Source of the DNA: a virus | Reading direction: 5' to 3' (one strand) | Length of the DNA: 24,849 nucleotides | IMG/VR virus record: IMGVR_UViG_3300042090_000917 | Span: 1-24,849 of that record | In this document: positions 4,435 to 24,849 of the stretch, one piece after another | How positions within the stretch are numbered: position 1 is the stretch's first letter | How the letters are laid out: every line of letters starts with the position of its first letter | Translations under genes and position numbers: made by a program | Notes under the pieces: generated by a model | What the model saw: only the letters and a program-made list of their open reading frames with translations | What the model was told of the DNA's origin: nothing | The model's database searches: none

Positions 4435-4698
4435 CTACTTTCCTCGGGACATCTTGAAGGTGATGACGGGCGGAGTCTGGACCAAACCAGCCGTTTCGGT
4501 GCCGTCCGGAAGCGTCATTCTTCTAGCACGATACGACTTCTTCCGGAAGCGTCCGAGGCCTGGAATCTTCACGTCCAAGCACTCGTAAATACAGGCCCTT
4601 TTGACCTCGAAAGCGAGGGCCCGAAGGACCGTTGCGACCTCGCTTTGAAGGAGCCCAGAACGGTCCGAAACCCTGACCACCAGCTCGGCAAACGTCAT
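4435..4698 (-). CDS. HU/IHF-family DNA-bending protein
   Basis: 87 residues, close to the usual 90. Two helices (MTFAELVVRVSDRSGLLQSE and VATVLRALAFEVKRA) precede the beta segment VKIPGLGRFRKKSYRARR, which matches the V-x-I/L-x-G-F/L-G-x-F segment of HU/IHF. A DNA-contacting arm follows (LPDGTETAGLVQTPP) and then ITFKMSRGK. The usual Arg-Asn-Pro at the arm tip is replaced by R-M-T-L-P, so intercalation may differ. HU-type proteins bend and compact DNA and assist initiation, recombination or packaging. The ATG at 4698 overlaps the upstream stop as ATGA with GGGGA just upstream; a GTG three codons earlier is less likely. Confidence 0.85.
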   Translation of the reverse strand: MTFAELVVRVSDRSGLLQSEVATVLRALAFEVKRACIYECLDVKIPGLGRFRKKSYRARRMTLPDGTETAGLVQTPPVITFKMSRGK

Positions 4699-5063
4699 GT
4701 TCCCCACCCGTGCGGAAGCTCCACGTTCGATGGCGCTCCCTTGAAGAGGGGACCCATCTGTTCGTCGGTGAGGCCCGCAAGACCGCAGCCCACGCGGGTC
4801 ACGAAGAACTGCATCTTGGGGAACGAGGCGGCGTAGACCAAGAAGCGGTGAACGTGCTCTTCGATCTTGTAGAGGGGAAGAGTCACCAGCCGCTCGTCCT
4901 TCGTTGGCAGGGCATAGGCGTGTCCCTGAAGACCCTCCCCTATGCCCATCACCGCCCCGTACTTCTCCACGGCTTCCGCCGCAGCGCCGGCCCCGTGGTA
5001 GCCCTTCAGATTGGAACCGAAGACGAAGATCTGTCCCGGCTTGATGACCTTGTCGATGCTCAC
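4695..5063 (-). CDS. Phage macrodomain-like conserved protein
   Basis: 122 residues beginning with GTG (GTGA overlap with the polymerase stop). It contains IFVFGSNLKGYHGAGAAAEA, then GEGLQGHAYALPTKD, then FFVTRVGCGLAGLTDEQMGP and FKGAPSNVELPHGW. This order (FGSN.xG.HGAGAA, G.GLQG..YA.PTKD, FFVTR.GCGLAG) is a conserved single-domain family common in tailed phages and resembling macrodomains, which bind ADP-ribose-type ligands. What it does in infection is not established here. A role in reversing host ADP-ribosylation or in nucleotide sensing is conceivable but unproven. It sits between the polymerase and HU-like genes and is translationally coupled to both. Confidence 0.7.
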   Translation of the reverse strand: MSIDKVIKPGQIFVFGSNLKGYHGAGAAAEAVEKYGAVMGIGEGLQGHAYALPTKDERLVTLPLYKIEEHVHRFLVYAASFPKMQFFVTRVGCGLAGLTDEQMGPLFKGAPSNVELPHGWGT

Positions 5064-12449: not shown

Positions 12450-13301
12450 CTACCTCTGGGGGATGGGGGTGCCGTGGTAGTGGTGGCGAAGGAAGTCTGC
12501 GACTCGCAGCGCCTTCCTCACGTCGTCCACCGTCTTGGCCCAGTCACCGTTCTTCGAGTTCCAGTCGGCCTTTCGAAGGAGGTAGCTGGGGTGGTAGATG
12601 GGGAACACCGGATAGGTGATGGTCCCGAAGCGACCATCGAAGCGGCCGTCGTACACGTTCCCTCGCATCTGGGTGATCTTCACCGAGACCGAACGGAACA
12701 GCGTGGTGAGGGCTGAGTTCCCGCAGGCGATGACGATCAGCGGGTCCAGGATGTAGAGGATGTTCATCAGCCTCTCCCGGCAAGCCTTCAGCTCGTCCGG
12801 GAAGGGGGTGCGGTTCTCTGGAGGTCGGCAGGCCACCGCGTTGGTGACGAAGAACCTCTCGTACCTCCAGTCGATGATCTGCTTGTGGAAGTGGTTCTTC
12901 GCCTCCTCCCCCTTCTTCCCCGTCCGAGGCATCTTCGAGTACTGCTCGTAGAAGGCCCGGATGGCGGGGTCGTCGGAGGTCATCGCCAAGATCTGGTTGA
13001 GGAGTTGACCGCTGTTGCCCACGAAGGGCACAGAGGTCGCCTCCTCTTCCTCACCGGGAGCCTCCCCGATGATCAGGATGTCTGCGGTGTCGGGGTTGCC
13101 TTCACCGAAGACGATGTCTGACTTCGTCGGGTCTGTCTTGAGGGTGCAGAGGGTGCAACGAGTGCAGCCGAACCACTGGTTGTAGAGCTGCTGCAGTTGC
13201 TCCTTCTTGGTCCCTTGGAAAGCGTGAAGAGGTGTCGGGGTGTCGTCCTTTCGGGCTTTGCCCCGAACCTTCTTCTTAGGTGCTGCGGTGGTCTCGGTCA
13301 C
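12450..13301 (-). CDS. Uracil-DNA glycosylase, family 4 type (4Fe-4S)
   Basis: 283 residues. The protein removes uracil from DNA. Motif 1 is GEAPGEEEE (79-87) followed by VPFVGNSGQLL; the Fe-S ligands are C46/C49 (with C52 nearby), C158 and C174, the last two 15 residues apart in ACRPPENRTPFPDELKAC; the active-site loop is YHPSYLLR (H237). All match family 4 glycosylases. Unusual features are a 40-residue basic N-terminal extension and an insertion of about 40 residues (108-147, Lys/His-rich) before the beta strand FFVTNAVAC. The start is the GTG at 13301, overlapping the upstream stop as GTGA with GAGGGAAAGG upstream; a longer GTG start at 13331 is less likely. It probably protects the phage genome from deaminated cytosine or dUMP incorporation. 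Confidence 0.9.
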   Translation of the reverse strand: MTETTAAPKKKVRGKARKDDTPTPLHAFQGTKKEQLQQLYNQWFGCTRCTLCTLKTDPTKSDIVFGEGNPDTADILIIGEAPGEEEEATSVPFVGNSGQLLNQILAMTSDDPAIRAFYEQYSKMPRTGKKGEEAKNHFHKQIIDWRYERFFVTNAVACRPPENRTPFPDELKACRERLMNILYILDPLIVIACGNSALTTLFRSVSVKITQMRGNVYDGRFDGRFGTITYPVFPIYHPSYLLRKADWNSKNGDWAKTVDDVRKALRVADFLRHHYHGTPIPQR

Positions 13302-13600
13302 TGGCCCTTTCCCTCGACATGGCGAAGCCACTTGGCTCCGGCCCGTCGTAGCTCATCCTGCGCGATTTGCAGCATCCGCATATCGTCGAGTCTGCTCCTT
13401 GGCACATTCAGTTCGGTCAGCCATGTGCGTAGGGCAGCCAGCACTTCTTGAACTTCGGGACCGCTGGATCCTTCCGTCACCTCCCCATCCTCTACGTGCA
13501 TCGCCTCAATCTCCTCTTGGAGATCGTTCGATAGGTCATAGAGCTTGGCATAGTCGTCATCCCGAAGAGGGACTACATCAAGCGGAGTCCGTAGCTCCAT
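13298..13600 (-). CDS. Hypothetical acidic protein (100 aa)
   Basis: 100 residues starting MELRTPLDVVPLRDDDYAKL. The first half is acidic (DLSNDLQEEIEAMHVEDGEV) and the second half is a basic helix pair (VQEVLAALRTWLTEL, MRMLQIAQDELRRAGAKWLR). No cysteines or catalytic motif. It overlaps the glycosylase start by 4 nt and follows the next upstream gene by 3 nt, so it is part of the coupled series. I do not recognise it. Confidence 0.6.
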   Translation of the reverse strand: MELRTPLDVVPLRDDDYAKLYDLSNDLQEEIEAMHVEDGEVTEGSSGPEVQEVLAALRTWLTELNVPRSRLDDMRMLQIAQDELRRAGAKWLRHVEGKGQ

Positions 13601-16108: not shown

Positions 16109-16240
16109 GAACCCTCCGAGTTCTAACGTTGTGCTGCCAAAACCTTATTCCGAATAAGGAAAGCGTCTTGCCAGAGGGGGAGTCAGGCCCTACACTCGCA
16201 AGCATCGCCGCTGTGCCCTCCCTCAGCCGAGGAGTTGTCC
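16109..16240. promoter_or_regulatory. Divergent intergenic region between replication and virion blocks
   Basis: 132 bp without a gene separate the two diverging blocks, so promoters in both directions are expected here. I could not find a convincing sigma70-type -35/-10 pair; TTGTGC, 17 nt, then GAATAA on the + strand is a poor match. The region contains the 17-bp palindrome listed separately and ribosome sites at both ends (GGAGG leftward, GAGGAG rightward). Confidence 0.6.
16143..16159. promoter_or_regulatory. 17-bp palindrome, candidate operator
   Basis: CCTTATTC, a single C, then GAATAAGG: perfect 8-bp arms around one central base, AT-rich within GC-rich DNA. It lies in the middle of the divergent region, where a regulator could control both blocks. 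A short hairpin in RNA is possible but the one-base centre favours a protein-binding DNA site. Confidence 0.5.
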
Positions 16241-17674
16241 ATGAAGACCGCCGGTGTGGTGCTGGATTTCTACGACGACCCCAACGGTGCTGGTCTCAAG
16301 CGTGCGTTCCCGACTGCCGCCGAGCTCCCCGAGAGCATCAAGACGGCCCACATCCTCACCCCTGAGGAGCACGACGTTCTTCGGAACGAGGCCTACGCTC
16401 TGATCCTCCGGGACGAGGGGAAAACCTTCCGCAAGTTCGCGTGTGTGGACGAGGGGAACACCATCCTCTCCGCTGTCTACTTCGAGCAGAACGCGGACAA
16501 GCTTCCGGCCGAAGCCATCAAGGTGGCGGCCACGAACCTGGCGTCCTTCTGCGCCGAGTTCGGCCTGGAGCCCACCCCCTTCATCAAGATGGCGGCGGAG
16601 GATGGGCCCAAGAAGCCGGCGACCAGCGGCGTGGGGAAGCAGCGAGACCCCGGCCTGCAGCCCTTGGTCGGTGATGAGGCCGACTGGGCGGCCCGCACCA
16701 ACCTTGTCTCGATCCGGGGCGGTGCTGACTCCGGTCGCGTCATCCCCACGGCCAACCAGATGAAGACGGCCGGAGTCGCTGGTGAGGGAGGCTTGTCTCT
16801 CGCCGACGACAAGAAGGACAACCCTCCTTCTTCCAAGAACCCCGCCAAGCTGAACACGAAGGACCAGAGCCCCAAGCCGCCGGTCAACAAGAAGCCCAGC
16901 GACGGCCCCGGGGCGGAGATCACCGGCGAGAACCGGGAGAGCACGGACTGGCCGAAGGTGGCCAACATGGTGGACGTGTCGGGGAAGCAGGCCGACACCT
17001 TTCTCTACCAGCGGCAGGCCGAGAAGACGGCGCTCGATGGGCGCTACTCTCTCGACAGCTACGGCGACGTGGTGAAGGCCGTGCAGTACTTCGACGAGAA
17101 CTGGGTCAACATGGACCCCTCTGACCGCCACCAGTACGCGGTGAAGACGGCGGCCCGTGCGGAGGAGCTGGGCATCGCCTCTTCGGAGATGCTGAACCGC
17201 TACGGCTCCACGGAGTACTCCCCTGACGTGGAGGCCCACCTCTCGGCCCGCAAGGCGAACTGCGACCGCGAGCACCACCCGATGTTCGACACGCTGAAGG
17301 AGAAGAGGTCGAGCATCGAGCCCGAGACCTTCGCCGAGCTCCTGAAGCAGGCCGACACTGTCGCCGGCCTGAACTGGTACTACGGCAACGGGACCATCTT
17401 CGATCCCTACCTCGCCACGTTCGGCGGCATGAACGAGAAGCAGGCTGCGGCTGCCTGGCGGTGGACGGGTCGAGTCGGCGACACCGTCAACCAGGACCAG
17501 ATCCAGAAGCTGGCCCGCGAGGGCCGGAAGCTGTTGATGAAGTACTTCAGCCACGAGATCGTGAACGGGTTCCAGAAGGATCCCATCACCGTCTTCGAGT
17601 CCCTGCCTGACGACTCGAAGGTGATTCTTTCCCGACTCGCCAGCGGCGAGTTCGACGCCATGCCCACGAACTGA
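16241..17674 (+). CDS. Putative virion-associated protein (477 aa)
   Basis: 477 residues starting MKTAGVVLDFYDDPNGAGLK, first gene of the rightward block. The ATG at 16241 has GAGGAG 7 nt upstream; a TTG two codons earlier is not needed. Three parts are visible: a folded N-terminal domain (1-125, ILTPEEHDVLRNEAYALILR, AVYFEQNADKLPAEAIKVAA), a disordered Lys/Pro/Asp/Asn-rich linker (about 126-235), and a helical C-terminal domain (VVKAVQYFDENWVNMD, AAAAWRWTGRVGDTVNQDQI). The opening hexapeptide MKTAGV recurs exactly at residues 174-179. No catalytic motif is seen. Its place three genes before the portal suggests a structural, scaffold or internal virion role; this is inferred. Confidence 0.7.
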   Translation: MKTAGVVLDFYDDPNGAGLKRAFPTAAELPESIKTAHILTPEEHDVLRNEAYALILRDEGKTFRKFACVDEGNTILSAVYFEQNADKLPAEAIKVAATNLASFCAEFGLEPTPFIKMAAEDGPKKPATSGVGKQRDPGLQPLVGDEADWAARTNLVSIRGGADSGRVIPTANQMKTAGVAGEGGLSLADDKKDNPPSSKNPAKLNTKDQSPKPPVNKKPSDGPGAEITGENRESTDWPKVANMVDVSGKQADTFLYQRQAEKTALDGRYSLDSYGDVVKAVQYFDENWVNMDPSDRHQYAVKTAARAEELGIASSEMLNRYGSTEYSPDVEAHLSARKANCDREHHPMFDTLKEKRSSIEPETFAELLKQADTVAGLNWYYGNGTIFDPYLATFGGMNEKQAAAAWRWTGRVGDTVNQDQIQKLAREGRKLLMKYFSHEIVNGFQKDPITVFESLPDDSKVILSRLASGEFDAMPTN

Positions 17675-17683
17675 GGAACCCTC

Positions 17684-18208
17684 ATGAACGCGGTCTCTTA
17701 CGTTGCATTCAAGGATGAGCTGGAGAAGATCGCGGGCTGGGGCGATCTCGCTACTCATGCTGCCGAGGTTGGTGGCCTCGGCATCCTGGCAGCTCCCACC
17801 ATCCAGAAGATGCGTGGGAAGAAGATGTCAGAGAAGGGCGAGCACGCTGCTGAACTGGGTGGGCTTGGCGTTCTGGCCGCCCCCTCTGCAGCTCACCTGG
17901 CGAAGCACCTGATCAAGCGGGGCTCGGCTGATCCCTTGCACATCGCCTTGCAGTATTTGGTGAAGCAGAGCGCCTCCAAGACCGCTCAGAGTGGGCGAGC
18001 GATGCTCAGCCTTGCTGAGAAGGGGATGCAAGCTGTGGGGACCGGAGCTGCCCGCGTCTCCCAGGGGGCGCATTCACTGGGTCCTTCTACAGTGAGGAAC
18101 CTTGGTGCCACGGCTGGCCGCGATGCAGAGGCCGCCCGCAAGGCTCGCATCGCGGAGGTCATGGCGAGGAACCGGGCTAACCCCAACGCTGGACGCATGT
18201 CCGTCTAG
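17684..18208 (+). CDS. Small protein with DELEKIA motif and duplicated Gly-rich segment
   Basis: 174 residues, ATG at 17684 with GAGG upstream. It begins MNAVSYVAFKDELEKIAGWG; A8-F9-K10-D11 to A17-G18 is a motif shared with the 231-aa protein encoded further on. The segment HAAEVGGLGILAAPT (about 25-39) is repeated as HAAELGGLGVLAAPS (about 55-69). These Gly/Ala/Leu-rich segments look membrane-active or packing-type. The second half is Ala/Ser/Arg-rich (RDAEAARKARIAEVMARNRA), basic and helical. The composition would fit an internal virion protein ejected with DNA or a head-interior protein, but no family is recognised. Confidence 0.65.
   Translation: MNAVSYVAFKDELEKIAGWGDLATHAAEVGGLGILAAPTIQKMRGKKMSEKGEHAAELGGLGVLAAPSAAHLAKHLIKRGSADPLHIALQYLVKQSASKTAQSGRAMLSLAEKGMQAVGTGAARVSQGAHSLGPSTVRNLGATAGRDAEAARKARIAEVMARNRANPNAGRMSV
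17714..17738 (+). repeat. 25-nt repeat encoding DELEKIAG, copy 1
   Basis: Twenty-five bases starting GATGAGCTGGAGAAG are identical to 19363-19387. Both copies are in the same frame and encode residues D-E-L-E-K-I-A-G. Synonymous positions are conserved too, which argues for recent duplication or sequence-level constraint. Confidence 0.85.
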
Positions 18209-18209
18209 G

Positions 18210-18228
18210 GGTGTTTCGTGGAAACACC
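18210..18228 (+). promoter_or_regulatory. Start-codon hairpin
   Basis: GGTGTTTC (18210-18217) pairs perfectly with GAAACACC (18221-18228), leaving only the GTG start codon (18218-18220) between the arms. In RNA it could close as a shorter stem with a larger loop. It overlaps the AGGGG ribosome site, so it could limit initiation, or as DNA it could be a protein-binding palindrome. Confidence 0.55.
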
Positions 18229-19150
18229 AGAGGAGCGGTTCCTTGCCACAATGAGAGGGGCTGCTCCAACAGCCCCCTCTGAGAACTCCGAGACGGAGAA
18301 GGAACTCCTGCGTGCGGACCCTGACACCGGGGTGCCCATCACGCTCAAGAACTTCCTCACCCACCACGACACCCACCCCATCGTCCTCGACTTCGCCATG
18401 CTCCGGGCCTTCAAGTTGGAGTGGCTGCTGTGGGAACCGGAGACGCTGTGGTCGGAGATCCAGCGGACCTTTGAGTCCCCGGTCTCCGAGCTCACGCGGG
18501 CCAAGCTGCAAACCCTGCGCACCCTTCACGTCGCCAACGGCCCCTGGGAGCACTGGCAGGTCTTCGAGAAGATCATCCAGGGGTTGAACAACAACATCCC
18601 CCGCTTCGACCTGATGCAGGCCCCCAGCCTGGAGCAGCTCTTCGCCGGCATCGACATCATGGACCACCTTCGGGCGATGGACTTCTCCCAAGAGGTGAAG
18701 CTCTACATCGCGGCTGCGGTTCTTCACGAGGACGTCTGTCTCGTCCCTCCGCCTCTCGACTTCGTGCAGATGGAGGTGAGCCAACCCTTCTACCACTGCA
18801 ACGACTGCGGGAACGAGGAGAGCGCCCTCTTCAGCGATGGCCTCTGCTCTACCTGCACCAAGAGGTTCTCCCCGGAGCAGGGCCTGTCGATGGCTCCCTC
18901 CCAAGAAGCTCTTGACCAAGGGAAGGGGCGCAACATGTCCCTGCTCTTGAAGTACGACCCGGACGTGGTGTCGGAGAAGTGGGAGAAGGCCAAGACCAAG
19001 CCGATGGCTGACGTGCCTGTGGAAGAGAACAACGCGGCCGACATTCAGATCGAGAAGCTCTTGGCCGCCAGGGACTACATGAACATCCGCCGGCGTCAGC
19101 TCGCGGACCAACTCACAGGGTTCAAGTCCTGGCTGGGAGCCGGCGTATGA
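18218..19150 (+). CDS. Zinc-ribbon protein in virion block (310 aa)
   Basis: 310 residues, starting at a GTG (METPEERFLATMRG if read as Met); AGGGG lies upstream. An ATG at 18251 is in frame but its nearest AGGAG is 15 nt away. The body is mostly helical with many Trp/Glu (FKLEWLLWEPETLWSEIQRT, GPWEHWQVFEKIIQGL). A zinc ribbon is formed by C194/C197 and C210/C213 (CNDCG to CSTC). The C-terminal third is charged and helical (DIQIEKLLAARDYMNIRRRQ). Its stop overlaps the next start as ATGA. I do not recognise the family. It sits two genes before the portal and may be a head or connector-associated factor; the zinc ribbon could equally mean a nucleic-acid binder. Confidence 0.65.
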   Translation: METPEERFLATMRGAAPTAPSENSETEKELLRADPDTGVPITLKNFLTHHDTHPIVLDFAMLRAFKLEWLLWEPETLWSEIQRTFESPVSELTRAKLQTLRTLHVANGPWEHWQVFEKIIQGLNNNIPRFDLMQAPSLEQLFAGIDIMDHLRAMDFSQEVKLYIAAAVLHEDVCLVPPPLDFVQMEVSQPFYHCNDCGNEESALFSDGLCSTCTKRFSPEQGLSMAPSQEALDQGKGRNMSLLLKYDPDVVSEKWEKAKTKPMADVPVEENNAADIQIEKLLAARDYMNIRRRQLADQLTGFKSWLGAGV

Positions 19151-19842
19151 GCCACCCCTACGAAGATCGCGGGCCATGCCCTGAGTGCGGAGAGTTTGCC
19201 ATCTCCTCCTGTCGCTGCCGTATCGGGAACCTTCGTTGTGCGAACGGGCATGACTGGCACAAGGTTGATGGAAAGGTGGTGCTCGGAACCGGTCACCACG
19301 GGGAGAAGACCGCCAGCGTCAGTAGTTCCGCTTTGAGTCCCATCACCATCGCGGCGTTTGCAGATGAGCTGGAGAAGATCGCGGGCTTCCAGCAGAACGT
19401 TGGCAACGCCATCGTCCACACCGCCAAGGGAGCTGGCAATCTGGTTCAGAAGGGTTGGCATGAGAGTGGGAACTGGTGGGGCATGGGCCAAGGCCGTATT
19501 GCTCGGATGCTTCCGGGCGGTAAGGCGCTGACCGTTGGTGGCTCTGCCATGATGCTTCCTGGAGCAGTTGCCAAGGAGGATCCGACAGGTCAGGGTCGGA
19601 CACGGACGGAGAGGTTGGCAGGTCTGGCTGGTGGGACTGTGGCTGGTCTTGCTGGAGGGGCTTCTCCGAATCTTGCGAAGAGCCTCATCGGCGGCACCGC
19701 TGCTGGTATCGGAGGAGAGTACATCGCTGGTCGAGCAGCCAGGGTTGTGTCTCCTCGCAAGAAGCCCGTTGCACAGCAACCGGAGCAGGCACCTGCTCAG
19801 CCGGCCGCTGCACCCGCACCCGCACCTGTGCCGCAGCAGTAG
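19147..19842 (+). CDS. Zinc-ribbon/glycine-zipper protein with DELEKIA motif (231 aa)
   Basis: 231 residues, ATG at 19147 in an ATGA overlap. The N-terminus is a cysteine cluster (CPECG 11-15, C22, C24, C31, H35). After a linker comes A70-F71-A72-D73-E-L-E-K-I-A-G80, the motif of the 174-aa protein. Residues 150-200 are a long Gly/Ala/Leu stretch with GxxxG-type spacing (LAGLAGGTVAGLAGG, SLIGGTAAGIGGEYIAGRAA), likely able to insert into or pack within membranes. The end is Pro/Ala/Gln-rich. It lies just before the portal. A membrane-active internal virion or ejection protein is an attractive inference; no family is recognised. Confidence 0.65.
   Translation: MSHPYEDRGPCPECGEFAISSCRCRIGNLRCANGHDWHKVDGKVVLGTGHHGEKTASVSSSALSPITIAAFADELEKIAGFQQNVGNAIVHTAKGAGNLVQKGWHESGNWWGMGQGRIARMLPGGKALTVGGSAMMLPGAVAKEDPTGQGRTRTERLAGLAGGTVAGLAGGASPNLAKSLIGGTAAGIGGEYIAGRAARVVSPRKKPVAQQPEQAPAQPAAAPAPAPVPQQ
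19363..19387 (+). repeat. 25-nt repeat encoding DELEKIAG, copy 2
   Basis: Identical over 25 bases to 17714-17738, 1.6 kb upstream, in the same reading frame. Flanking bases differ at once on both sides except for the shared Phe two codons before it. Confidence 0.85.
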
Positions 19843-19851
19843 GGAGTTCTC

Positions 19852-21894
19852 GTGAGCTTCGACAACGTAGCTCTAGGCCTCGGTGGTACGTCACGCTTCT
19901 CGGGAAACCGGGGGCGCACTGCCGATGGCATGAGTCGGAGCGGAGTCCGCTACCCGTCTCCCTTCTTCGACATCGGCCACACCTACCTGCCGCCTTCCGT
20001 CAAGGCGCTGCTGCGGTGGTGCCGGTACTACTACCTCGTCAACCCCCTCATCAACACCGTCATCCACAAGATGTCGGAGTACCCCATCACAGAGATCGTG
20101 ATGGACGAGAAGAACCCCGACATCAAGGAGAAGTGGGAGACGATGCTCGGGCAGCACCTGCGGTACCGAGCCTTCCAGATCGAGTGCGGTCTCGACTACT
20201 TCACCTACGGGATGTGCATCACCACCATCCACTTCCCGTTCACGAAGAACCTCATCTGCCGTTCGTGCGGCTACAAGGAGAAGGCCTCCAAGATCTTCTA
20301 CAAGTGGAGGAACCTCGACTACGTCATCGAGTGCCCGAAGTGCCACCACGTCGGTCCGGCCAAGGTCCAGGACTACTACGAGAAGGACCCGCAGCGGATT
20401 CGGCTGCAGCGGTGGAACCCGGAGTACGTCAACGTCGACCCTGGGTTCGCTGGGTCGGATCCCACGTACACCTTCGAGCTCCCGCTTCAGACTCGCAACG
20501 ACGTGCTGCTGGGGAAGAAGAACGTCCTCGACACCATCCCGGACATCTTCATCGAGGCGATGCGGCGGAACAAGTTCATCGCCTTCGCCCCCGAGAACGT
20601 CTTCGTGATGAAGCGGCCCATCATCTCTCAGAAGGATGAGGGATGGGGCATGCCGCTGATCTTCCCCGTCCTCAAGGACACCTTCTACCTGCAGATCCTG
20701 CGCAAGGCTCAGGAGGCCATCGCCCAGGAGCACATCGTTCCTCTGCGGCTGCTCTTCCCCCAGGCCGGCAGTGCGAGCTCCGATCCGTACACCACCATCT
20801 CCCTGGAGGCGTGGAAGACCCGCATCGAGGGTGAGATCGCGAAGTGGAAGTACGACTCGAACTACATCCCCATCCTGCCGCTGCCCATCGGCCAGGAGAG
20901 CATCGGAGGCGACGGCAAGGCGCTGATGCTGAACGAGGAGATGAGGGTCTGGTCGGAGCAGATCATCGCCGGCATGGGCGTGCCTCAGGAGTTCGTCTTC
21001 GGCGGGATGCAGTACAGCGGCAGCAACGTCTCGATGCGGATGCTGGAGAACAGCTTCCTCGGCTACCGCATCGACCACGAGAACATGCTGAACCAGTTCG
21101 TGATCCGTCGCATCGCGAACTACATGGACTGGCCGCAGACGTCAGCCCACATGCGTCGGTTCAAGATGGCCGACGATCTGCAGAGGGCCAACCTCTTCTT
21201 CCAGTTGAACCAGGCTCAGAAGATCTCCGACACGACTCTCCTGCAAGAGGTCGATCAGGATCCGGTGGTCGAGAAGGAGCGGATCAAGTCGGAGATGGAC
21301 CAGCAGCTTGAGACCCAGCGGAAGATGCAGCTCGCTCAGGCGTCCGTCCAGGCAGAGGTGGTGAAGCTCACCACCAAGGCTCAGATGGAGGCCCAGGCAG
21401 AGGCTGGCATGATGCCCGGTGCGGCTCCTCCCGGAGGAGCTCCTGGTGCAGAAGGGGCCGCAGGCGCTGCACCTGCCGGTCCGCCTGGCGCAGAAGGTGC
21501 GCCTGGGGCTGGTGGCCAAGAGGGAGAGATGCTTCCTGGACAGCAGGTTGATCCCGCGATGCCGCAGGGCTCGACCGTCTCCATGGAGAACGCCCAGGAA
21601 GCACCTACGGACGGCATCCCCACTGAGGCCGCCAGCCCCCTGACCATGGGGATGAAGGGAGGGGGAGCCAACCTCCTCTACCTCGCCAAGCGTGCTGCCA
21701 ACGCTCTTGAGGACATGGACCAGATGACCAAGATGATGGAGCTCTCGCGGATGCAGGCGTCCAATCCGCAGCTCTACATGCTGGTCATCAACATCATCCG
21801 CTCGCAGCAGGGCAGCCAGGCGAACCCGCTCGACGCCTCTCAGAGCCCGCTGCCGGAGCAGAAGCCCAGCCGCCGTGCCGCTCCTGTAGGGTAG
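19852..21894 (+). CDS. Portal protein with embedded zinc ribbon
   Basis: 680 residues; forms the dodecameric DNA-entry ring at the head vertex. GTG start at 19852 with GGGAG upstream. Portal signs are YYYLVNPLINTVIHKMSEYP near the N-terminus, the wing/stem region with FYLQILRKAQEAIAQEHIVP, and GMGVPQEFVFGGMQYSGSNV followed by MRMLENSFLGYRIDHENML, as in many phage portals (late helix with QxxS/RxLE). Uncommonly, a zinc ribbon interrupts the clip/wing region: C136/C139 and C161/C164. The C-terminal part (residues about 520-570) is Gly/Pro/Ala/Glu-rich and collagen-like, followed by a helical end. The function is inferred from fold-level sequence pattern and gene order; terminase is not in the window. 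Confidence 0.85.
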   Translation: MSFDNVALGLGGTSRFSGNRGRTADGMSRSGVRYPSPFFDIGHTYLPPSVKALLRWCRYYYLVNPLINTVIHKMSEYPITEIVMDEKNPDIKEKWETMLGQHLRYRAFQIECGLDYFTYGMCITTIHFPFTKNLICRSCGYKEKASKIFYKWRNLDYVIECPKCHHVGPAKVQDYYEKDPQRIRLQRWNPEYVNVDPGFAGSDPTYTFELPLQTRNDVLLGKKNVLDTIPDIFIEAMRRNKFIAFAPENVFVMKRPIISQKDEGWGMPLIFPVLKDTFYLQILRKAQEAIAQEHIVPLRLLFPQAGSASSDPYTTISLEAWKTRIEGEIAKWKYDSNYIPILPLPIGQESIGGDGKALMLNEEMRVWSEQIIAGMGVPQEFVFGGMQYSGSNVSMRMLENSFLGYRIDHENMLNQFVIRRIANYMDWPQTSAHMRRFKMADDLQRANLFFQLNQAQKISDTTLLQEVDQDPVVEKERIKSEMDQQLETQRKMQLAQASVQAEVVKLTTKAQMEAQAEAGMMPGAAPPGGAPGAEGAAGAAPAGPPGAEGAPGAGGQEGEMLPGQQVDPAMPQGSTVSMENAQEAPTDGIPTEAASPLTMGMKGGGANLLYLAKRAANALEDMDQMTKMMELSRMQASNPQLYMLVINIIRSQQGSQANPLDASQSPLPEQKPSRRAAPVG

Positions 21895-23309: not shown

Positions 23310-24849
23310 ATGGCTGACCTCCCTACGGGCACTCCTTTCGACGCTCTCAAGAAGAACGTCGTCGAATCCATCGAGAGCTACTTCCCCTTCGACGGTCGGA
23401 AGCAATCGGTCTCTGTGAGCAACGTGCGGGTCGAGGACAACCTCTCCCACGACGACATCCAGTCTCAGCTCGACGCCAAAGACAAGGAGGGCACCTGGGG
23501 CGTGCCGGTCAAGGCGGACATCAAGCTCATCAACCGGGCTACTGGCAAGGTGGTGGATGAGAAGAAGAACGCCACCCTGGCTCGCATCCCCAAGATCACC
23601 GACCGCCACAGCTACATCGTCGGTGGCAACGAGTACCAGATCGACCATCTCTTCCGACTGAAGTCTGGGGTCTATGCCCGCGTCCAGGAGAGCGGAGACC
23701 TGGAGTCGGAGTTCAACCTGAAGAAGAGCCCCATCGGTCGCGGGTTCTCCGTCGCCTTCAACAACAAGACCAAGAAGTTCACCTTCAAGGTGGGTGACTC
23801 CAACGTCCCTCTGTACCCGGTGCTGAAGAGCATGGGTGTGGCGGACGACCAGTTGGAGAAGGAGTGGGGCAAGCAGCTCTTCGACATCAACCGGATCCGC
23901 AGCGACGAGAAGACCCACAACGCCCTGCTGAGCTTCTGGAAGAAGACCACCAGTGAGGGGGATGAGTTGCCCACCACAACGGAGGGCCTGGCTAAGCACG
24001 TCGGGACCTTCTTTGGGGACACTGAGCTCCTGCCGGACACGACGGCCATCACCCTGGGCAAGCCCTTCACCAAGGTGAATGGAGAGACCCTGACTCTGGC
24101 TGCCTCCAAGATCCTGGGGGTCGCCGCAGGGACCAGCAAGCCAGACGACCGCGACTCTCTGGCCTTCAAGGAGGTGGCGGGTCTCGAAGACTTCTTGCCT
24201 GAGCGCATCCGGAAGAGTGCCAGGAACATCAAGGCCCGAATGCGGCACACGGTGGACCACAAGGAGTCGGTGGGGGACATCCTCTCGACCGATCTCTTCA
24301 ACCGTCCGGTCCATGAGTTCTTCACCAAGGGTGGCTCAGTCTCCGAGCGGTCGGAGCAGACCAACCCGGTGCAGATGCTCTCCGACAGTCGGAAGACCAC
24401 GCTCATCGCCCCTGACCTGGGCGGCATGAAGGGTGAGCACAACCTCGTCACCTCGATGCAGGTGGTGAACCCCAGCCACTTCGGCTTCCTCGATCCGATG
24501 CACACGCCCGAGAGCGAGAAGACGGGCATCACCCTTCACCTCGGCATCGGAGCTCGGAAGAACGGCAAGGACCTGGAGGCTCCCGTCTACGACCACGAGA
24601 CAGGGAAGAACACCCACCTCAACGTCCCCACCTTCCACGCTGCCTCAGTCGTGCTGCCTGATCAGGTTCGCTGGGTGAACGGCAAGCCGGAGGCCATCAA
24701 CGACCACATCAAGGTGAAGATGCCGGGCGGGGACATCGAGAAGGTGCCGGCCAAGGATCTGGGGACGAAGATCCGCTACGTCATGCGTTCGGCCAAGGGG
24801 ATGTTCGACCACGCCTCGAACCTCATCCCCTTCCTGCCCACCGACCAGG
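23310..24849 (+). CDS. RNA polymerase beta-subunit homolog (multisubunit type), 3' end beyond window
   Basis: 513 codons, open to the edge. ATG at 23310 with AGGGTGAG upstream (MADLPTGTPFDALKKNVVES). The beta features appear in order: ITDRHSYIVGGNEYQIDHLF (compare bacterial FIINGTERVVVSQLHRSPG), QTNPVQMLSDSRKTTLIAPD (350-369, compare [20 protein letters not shown] of the rifampicin region), GMKGEHNL, VVNPSHFGFLDPMHTPESEK (compare VHPTHYGRVCPIETPEGPN), and HASNLIPFLPTDQ (compare GASLIPFLEHDDA). It is about 160 residues shorter than E. coli beta up to that point, so the lobes are reduced. The catalytic C-terminal half and any beta-prime gene lie beyond the window. It would transcribe phage genes; whether it acts alone, as a fused chain, or is packaged in the virion cannot be told here. 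Confidence 0.9.
   Translation, partial: MADLPTGTPFDALKKNVVESIESYFPFDGRKQSVSVSNVRVEDNLSHDDIQSQLDAKDKEGTWGVPVKADIKLINRATGKVVDEKKNATLARIPKITDRHSYIVGGNEYQIDHLFRLKSGVYARVQESGDLESEFNLKKSPIGRGFSVAFNNKTKKFTFKVGDSNVPLYPVLKSMGVADDQLEKEWGKQLFDINRIRSDEKTHNALLSFWKKTTSEGDELPTTTEGLAKHVGTFFGDTELLPDTTAITLGKPFTKVNGETLTLAASKILGVAAGTSKPDDRDSLAFKEVAGLEDFLPERIRKSARNIKARMRHTVDHKESVGDILSTDLFNRPVHEFFTKGGSVSERSEQTNPVQMLSDSRKTTLIAPDLGGMKGEHNLVTSMQVVNPSHFGFLDPMHTPESEKTGITLHLGIGARKNGKDLEAPVYDHETGKNTHLNVPTFHAASVVLPDQVRWVNGKPEAINDHIKVKMPGGDIEKVPAKDLGTKIRYVMRSAKGMFDHASNLIPFLPTDQ

Follow-up and report, generated by a model that had tools for sequence, protein, structure and literature searches.

The viral DNA analysed here, in the following called the window, comprises 24,849 nucleotides and constitutes an entire IMG/VR record. 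Towards its 3' end, the plus strand carries two open reading frames (ORFs) encoding proteins of 174 and 231 residues, which share a short sequence motif, the tag. The features of this region are as follows:

16235–17674, plus strand: 479-residue protein upstream of the first tagged gene, a likely head protein and protease substrate (12 K-x-A motifs compared to 1.0 expected)
17684–18208, plus strand: 174-residue tagged protein with a Gly/Ala-rich helical body and an internal HAAExGGLGxLAAP repeat
17684–17734, plus strand: leader MNAVSYVAFKDELEKIA of the 174-residue protein with tag copy 1, fitting the consensus M-x(4-10)-AFxDELxKIA, information being at background right past A17
17714–17738, plus strand: 25-nucleotide stretch, copy 1, identical to 19363–19387
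18218–19150, plus strand: 310-residue protein between the two tagged genes, containing neither tag nor K-x-A
19147–19842, plus strand: 231-residue tagged protein with a zinc-ribbon-like N-terminus, linker, tag and Gly/Ala-rich C-terminus
19306–19314, plus strand: KTA (residues 54–56 of the 231-residue protein) upstream of the internal tag, a candidate second cut site
19357–19383, plus strand: internal tag FADELEKIA (residues F71–A79), tag copy 2
19363–19387, plus strand: 25-nucleotide stretch, copy 2, identical to 17714–17738
19852–21894, plus strand: portal protein, marker of the lineage
23310–24849, plus strand: start of the gene for a multisubunit RNA polymerase beta subunit, orthologue of Arash gp206

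The motif AFxDELEKIAG occupies residues 8–18 of the 174-residue and 70–80 of the 231-residue protein, with a core of the FxDELEKIA type that in the former extends from F9 to A17 (nucleotides 17708–17734). In both ORFs the tag is encoded by GATGAGCTGGAGAAGATCGCGGGCT, a stretch of exactly 25 nucleotides that is identical at 17714 and 19363 and that constitutes the longest exact repeat of the window and the only one of this length, the next unrelated exact repeat spanning 16 nucleotides. Outside the tag, the two proteins are unrelated to each other. ORF and repeat analysis thus confirm what a first-pass annotation had described, namely a common motif on identical DNA in otherwise differing proteins, located at the N-terminus in one protein and after a zinc ribbon and linker in the other. 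In the 231-residue protein, the region preceding the tag is zinc-ribbon-like, with CPEC and CRC. A third copy or loose variant was not found in any frame of the whole window. In a structure prediction of low confidence (pLDDT 55), the leader of the 174-residue protein forms a helix at residues 3–17. Scans of both tagged proteins against Pfam and PHROG assigned no family, and a search of named phage records with the 174-residue protein returned no match. Within its body, positions 17744–17896 encode the segment HAAExGGLGxLAAP twice in nearly identical form, which could reflect an internal duplication or form a membrane-active hairpin.

Beyond the window, a codon pattern for FxDELEKIA matches 109 IMG/VR stretches, compared to about one chance match calculated for a collection of this size. 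A relaxed pattern yields 74 matches in 16 long related records and none when reversed, and in 24 records that were chosen by their portal and not by the motif it yields 27, again with none in the reversed control, the strict tag being present in 13 of the 24 records (about half). From IMG/VR records we collected 197 distinct motif-bearing ORF copies, a set that includes a handful of probable chance matches; with start codons picked by a simple ribosome-site rule, the motif begins within the first 20 residues in 164 of them. The tag is the sole common feature in an alignment of 106 tagged proteins, where F, D, E, K and I are each conserved to at least 90%. The resulting profile, M-x(4-10)-[AS]-F-x-D-E-L-x-K-I-[AS], shows a column information of 2.6–5.0 over most of the motif, which drops to 0.28 and lower immediately past the terminal A/S. 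Paralogous tags within other genomes have 47–76% identical codons and identical DNA is not the rule, hence selection acts on the peptide. A tag that is mobile at the DNA level was considered and rejected, since paralogous copies differ in codons and in upstream DNA. In 257 Gb of cellular genomes the pattern is rare, with 60 matches, and the 40 that were re-read as FxDELEKIA are mostly internal in ordinary proteins, with two of them (L207 and L213) residing on what look like phage contigs. A tblastn search of named phages with concatenated tags gave chance-level matches only (E 4–8), and no paper naming the motif was found in the open-access literature. The shared motif is thus real and not a product of chance, and the proposal of a portable signal gains strong support. 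Its absence elsewhere or its random placement in non-virion genes, which had been named as observations that would speak against such a signal, is not what we find, as the motif recurs widely at the N-terminus of unrelated bodies and is specific to one lineage.

The carriers of the tag are tailed phages of a single lineage, to which Salmonella phage Arash is related. The window contains an Arash-type portal gene followed by the RNA polymerase beta gene. The same type of portal is present in 43 of 50 further records with the tag, and relatives of this portal were found in at least 404 viral stretches. The closest cultured relatives are Arash (OQ632216) and Vibrio phage D69 (OZ195729), and homologues of the Arash portal, both RNA polymerase subunits (beta and beta'), terminase, major capsid protein (MCP), protease, sheath and sigma factor are found in most fetched records. 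Although the portals of both cultured phages are homologous to that of the window, and Arash additionally has terminase, MCP, protease, RNA polymerase, helicase and K-x-A-rich head proteins in common with the lineage, the AFxDELxKIA tag was found in neither of them. Among tag-poor relatives, G081 contains one copy of a tag-like consensus and G074 none, and the motif PhixKxA is still enriched in both (50 compared to 18.6 expected in G081 and 28 compared to 12.8 in G074). The order of the 479-residue protein, tagged gene, 310-residue protein, tagged gene and portal is kept in records G001 and G009. G003 and G009 have an orthologue of the 174-residue protein at the corresponding place, and the 479-residue protein has orthologues that keep its position next to the portal in G001, G003, G004, G005, G009 and G011. 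Arash gp206, the orthologue of the polymerase subunit, is the most-detected protein of the Arash virion. On the minus strand of the window, the regions 12450–13331 and 4435–5063 appear by eye to encode a uracil-DNA glycosylase, a macro-domain protein and an HU/IHF-like protein.

The end of the tag is one instance of a wider motif, [LIMF]xKxA. The well-detected virion proteins of Arash contain 39 sites of the [LIM]xKxA type compared to 5.9 in composition-preserving shuffles, an approximately six-fold enrichment that chiefly originates from gp220, gp223, gp242, the protease and gp97 and also from gp225, which was detected with two peptides, whereas undetected proteins with 3 sites compared to 3.45 show no enrichment. 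Similarly, minus-strand genes of the window, mostly devoted to replication, contain 5 K-x-A motifs against 8.8 expected, and in relatives the motif clusters in the protease and in adjoining scaffold-like ORFs. Ala/Lys-rich helical scaffold proteins could be partly responsible for the enrichment, although the shuffles keep composition. The protease of the lineage, whose traits are taken from relatives because the window, with its 24,849 bases, does not extend to the gene, matches the PHROG head maturation protease, and its model (mean pLDDT 67, about 80–90 in the core, thus of moderate confidence) finds its best structural match in T4 gp21 (5JBL, Z 9.0), herpesvirus proteases being among the further matches. 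Within this Arash gp222 family, the fold contains an invariant histidine (H109) and serine (S160). The protease itself carries an N-terminal [LMIF]xKxA site, where K28 and A30 are invariant in 13 diverged sequences, and this site is located where the model passes from a disordered region (1–31) to an ordered one. The N-termini of the MCPs show only a partial K-I-A, hence the cut site of the major capsid protein is not cleanly explained by K-x-A. Among 25 tags located deep inside ORFs, 22 are preceded by K-x-A/S within at most 25 residues upstream, compared to 4.5 expected, which suggests that internal tags are bracketed by two cuts. The 231-residue protein of the window, itself outside this set, exhibits the same layout, with KTA at 54–56 and the tag at 71–79. 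A prohead protease gene at L055:2328–6392 (plus strand) contains an in-frame intein with Hint and LAGLIDADG domains, and the one at G010:141237–145256 has a similar-looking insertion. Some portal ORFs of the lineage are unusually long (1098–1634 residues) with split homology (G023:C1:73712–78559, G031:C1:171025–174333, G043:C1:72460–75717), suggesting that these contain inteins too.

The bodies attached to the tag match SNF2 helicases, C92 (papain-like) and NlpC/P60 amidases, a pyrophosphatase, NUDIX, GNAT and metallopeptidase proteins, DarB-like antirestriction proteins, an endolysin, a minor head protein and unknowns. Tagged helicases align with Arash gp217 along their length at 28–38% identity, those in L010 and L109 reaching 38% end to end, and proteomics of Arash virions recorded gp217 by 38 unique peptides and 1148 spectra (PMC10585845). 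Since Arash gp217 begins at the domain itself, with no in-frame leader upstream, Arash packages its helicase without it, and the leader is therefore not universally needed for packaging. The sigma factors of some relatives carry N-terminal extensions with K-x-A that are missing in the orthologous Arash gp10, a virion protein. Tagged genes cluster by the sigma-factor gene in several records (G001:12212–14507, G005:16252–30286, G010:45531–47221, G007:197508–198376), possibly forming a cargo island. Some single ORFs contain two tags or tag-like repeats (L011:3304–5397, L023:1284–2219, L070:6384–6866), for instance where a helicase precedes another domain with a tag of its own. The two window products, initially described as putative virion proteins, are better regarded as likely head cargo, since the link to the virion consists of the detection of the untagged orthologue gp217 in conjunction with the genomic and K-x-A context.

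We have thus found a conserved portable leader with a sharp boundary, attached to unrelated bodies in one phage lineage, which encodes a protease with a gp21-like fold and whose head and virion proteins are enriched in K-x-A. In its probable function, this leader would load cargo into the prohead and subsequently be removed, with AFxDEL as docking helix and KxA as cut site of the prohead protease. Accordingly organized in about 15–20 residues, usually at the N-terminus and with the motif as its conserved end, the leader would form an amphipathic helix ending in AFxDEL, by which the cargo docks onto the core or scaffold of the prohead. Its K-I-A/S end would then be cut by the gp21-like protease with a consensus of roughly [LIMF]-x-K-x-A, as many independent sites suggest. 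Cut cargo, in the window residues 18–174 and 80–231 of the respective proteins, would remain in the head and be ejected with the DNA. In the 231-residue protein, cuts at KTA (54–56) and at the tag would separate the zinc-ribbon-like from the Gly/Ala-rich domain. We infer docking, cleavage, the exact scissile bond, packaging and ejection from these patterns, with untagged orthologues providing the connection to the virion. Among the roles initially considered, loading into the head and serving as a protease site are both supported, seemingly as two halves of one leader. A direct docking on the portal was rejected, as no specific evidence points to it.

The leader is best read as a functional analogue of the capsid-targeting sequence (CTS) of phage T4, which precedes the internal proteins IPI, IPII, IPIII and Alt and is cut by gp21 (PMC3012670, PMC5694885). 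Both are short N-terminal leaders on diverse proteins in phages whose lineage encodes a gp21-like protease, and the N-terminal leader of 10–20 residues that is typical of the T4 kind has its counterpart here in 164 of 197 copies, on otherwise unrelated carriers, one of the window copies being internal. In sequence, however, they have only a general amphipathicity in common, the T4 CTS being MKTYQEFIAE-A with a cut at L/I-x-E in contrast to AFxDELxKIA with its putative K-x-A cut, and here there are many more carriers as well as an internal use with bracketing K-x-A. In phage P1, the N-terminal 30 residues of DarB send the antirestriction protein and a reporter into the head (PMC9024508). This N-terminal head signal resembles our leader, whose cargo includes DarB-like proteins, but the P1 Dar proteins have no common consensus, whereas here one consensus extends across unrelated cargo. 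SPN3US and phiKZ carry an RNA polymerase in the virion and process head proteins at the N-terminus, the propeptides containing multiple cut sites (PMC5694885). Virion polymerase and N-terminal processing would be common to the present lineage, but their propeptides are mostly long (over 100 residues) and cut at AxE/SxE.

Instead of a two-part leader, the tag might be a pure recognition site of the prohead protease, with packaging relying on the folded bodies. The presence of K-x-A in the protease, scaffold-like and head proteins without AFxDEL and its bracketing of internal tags would both fit such a site, but AFxDE, which is missing at other K-x-A sites, is as strongly conserved as KIA and the unrelated bodies could not all have a common docking surface, making this explanation improbable. 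We regard it as very unlikely that the tag is an uncleaved docking peptide for a head, portal or RNA polymerase component that is retained in the virion. Although tagged genes adjoin those of the portal and RNA polymerase in the window, G001 and G009 and are found near the sigma-factor gene in several records, conservation drops sharply right past KIA, and the end of the tag is identical to the propeptide boundary of the protease itself. The chances are slimmer still for an address label outside of the virion, for example of early proteins bound for the membrane, a vesicle or a replication compartment: many tagged proteins are small accessory products without an assigned function and some are Gly/Ala-rich and membrane-like, but the helicases that bear the tag have an orthologue that is abundant in virions, and the K-x-A half tracks virion and not replication proteins. 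Finally, chance or descent of both window proteins from one gene, of which the identical 25 nucleotides would be a remnant, has a negligible probability and is refuted by the comparative data, in which numerous copies are joined to unrelated bodies, their codons having diverged and their flanking DNA being unrelated.

Proteins that phages co-inject with their DNA are usually identified only by proteomics of the cultured virion. If the leader were a loading tag, the injected set, including candidates for anti-defence and host takeover, could be listed from sequence alone for many phages that are uncultured and bring their own RNA polymerase in the virion, and the leader could load chosen proteins into such heads. 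The motif [LIMF]xKxA provides a testable cut consensus for a family of prohead proteases distinct from the L/I-x-E type. Whether the two-part code designates the cargo that a large uncultured lineage ejects, in which bracketed internal copies would allow one gene to give rise to two separately released head proteins, is in our view evenly balanced.
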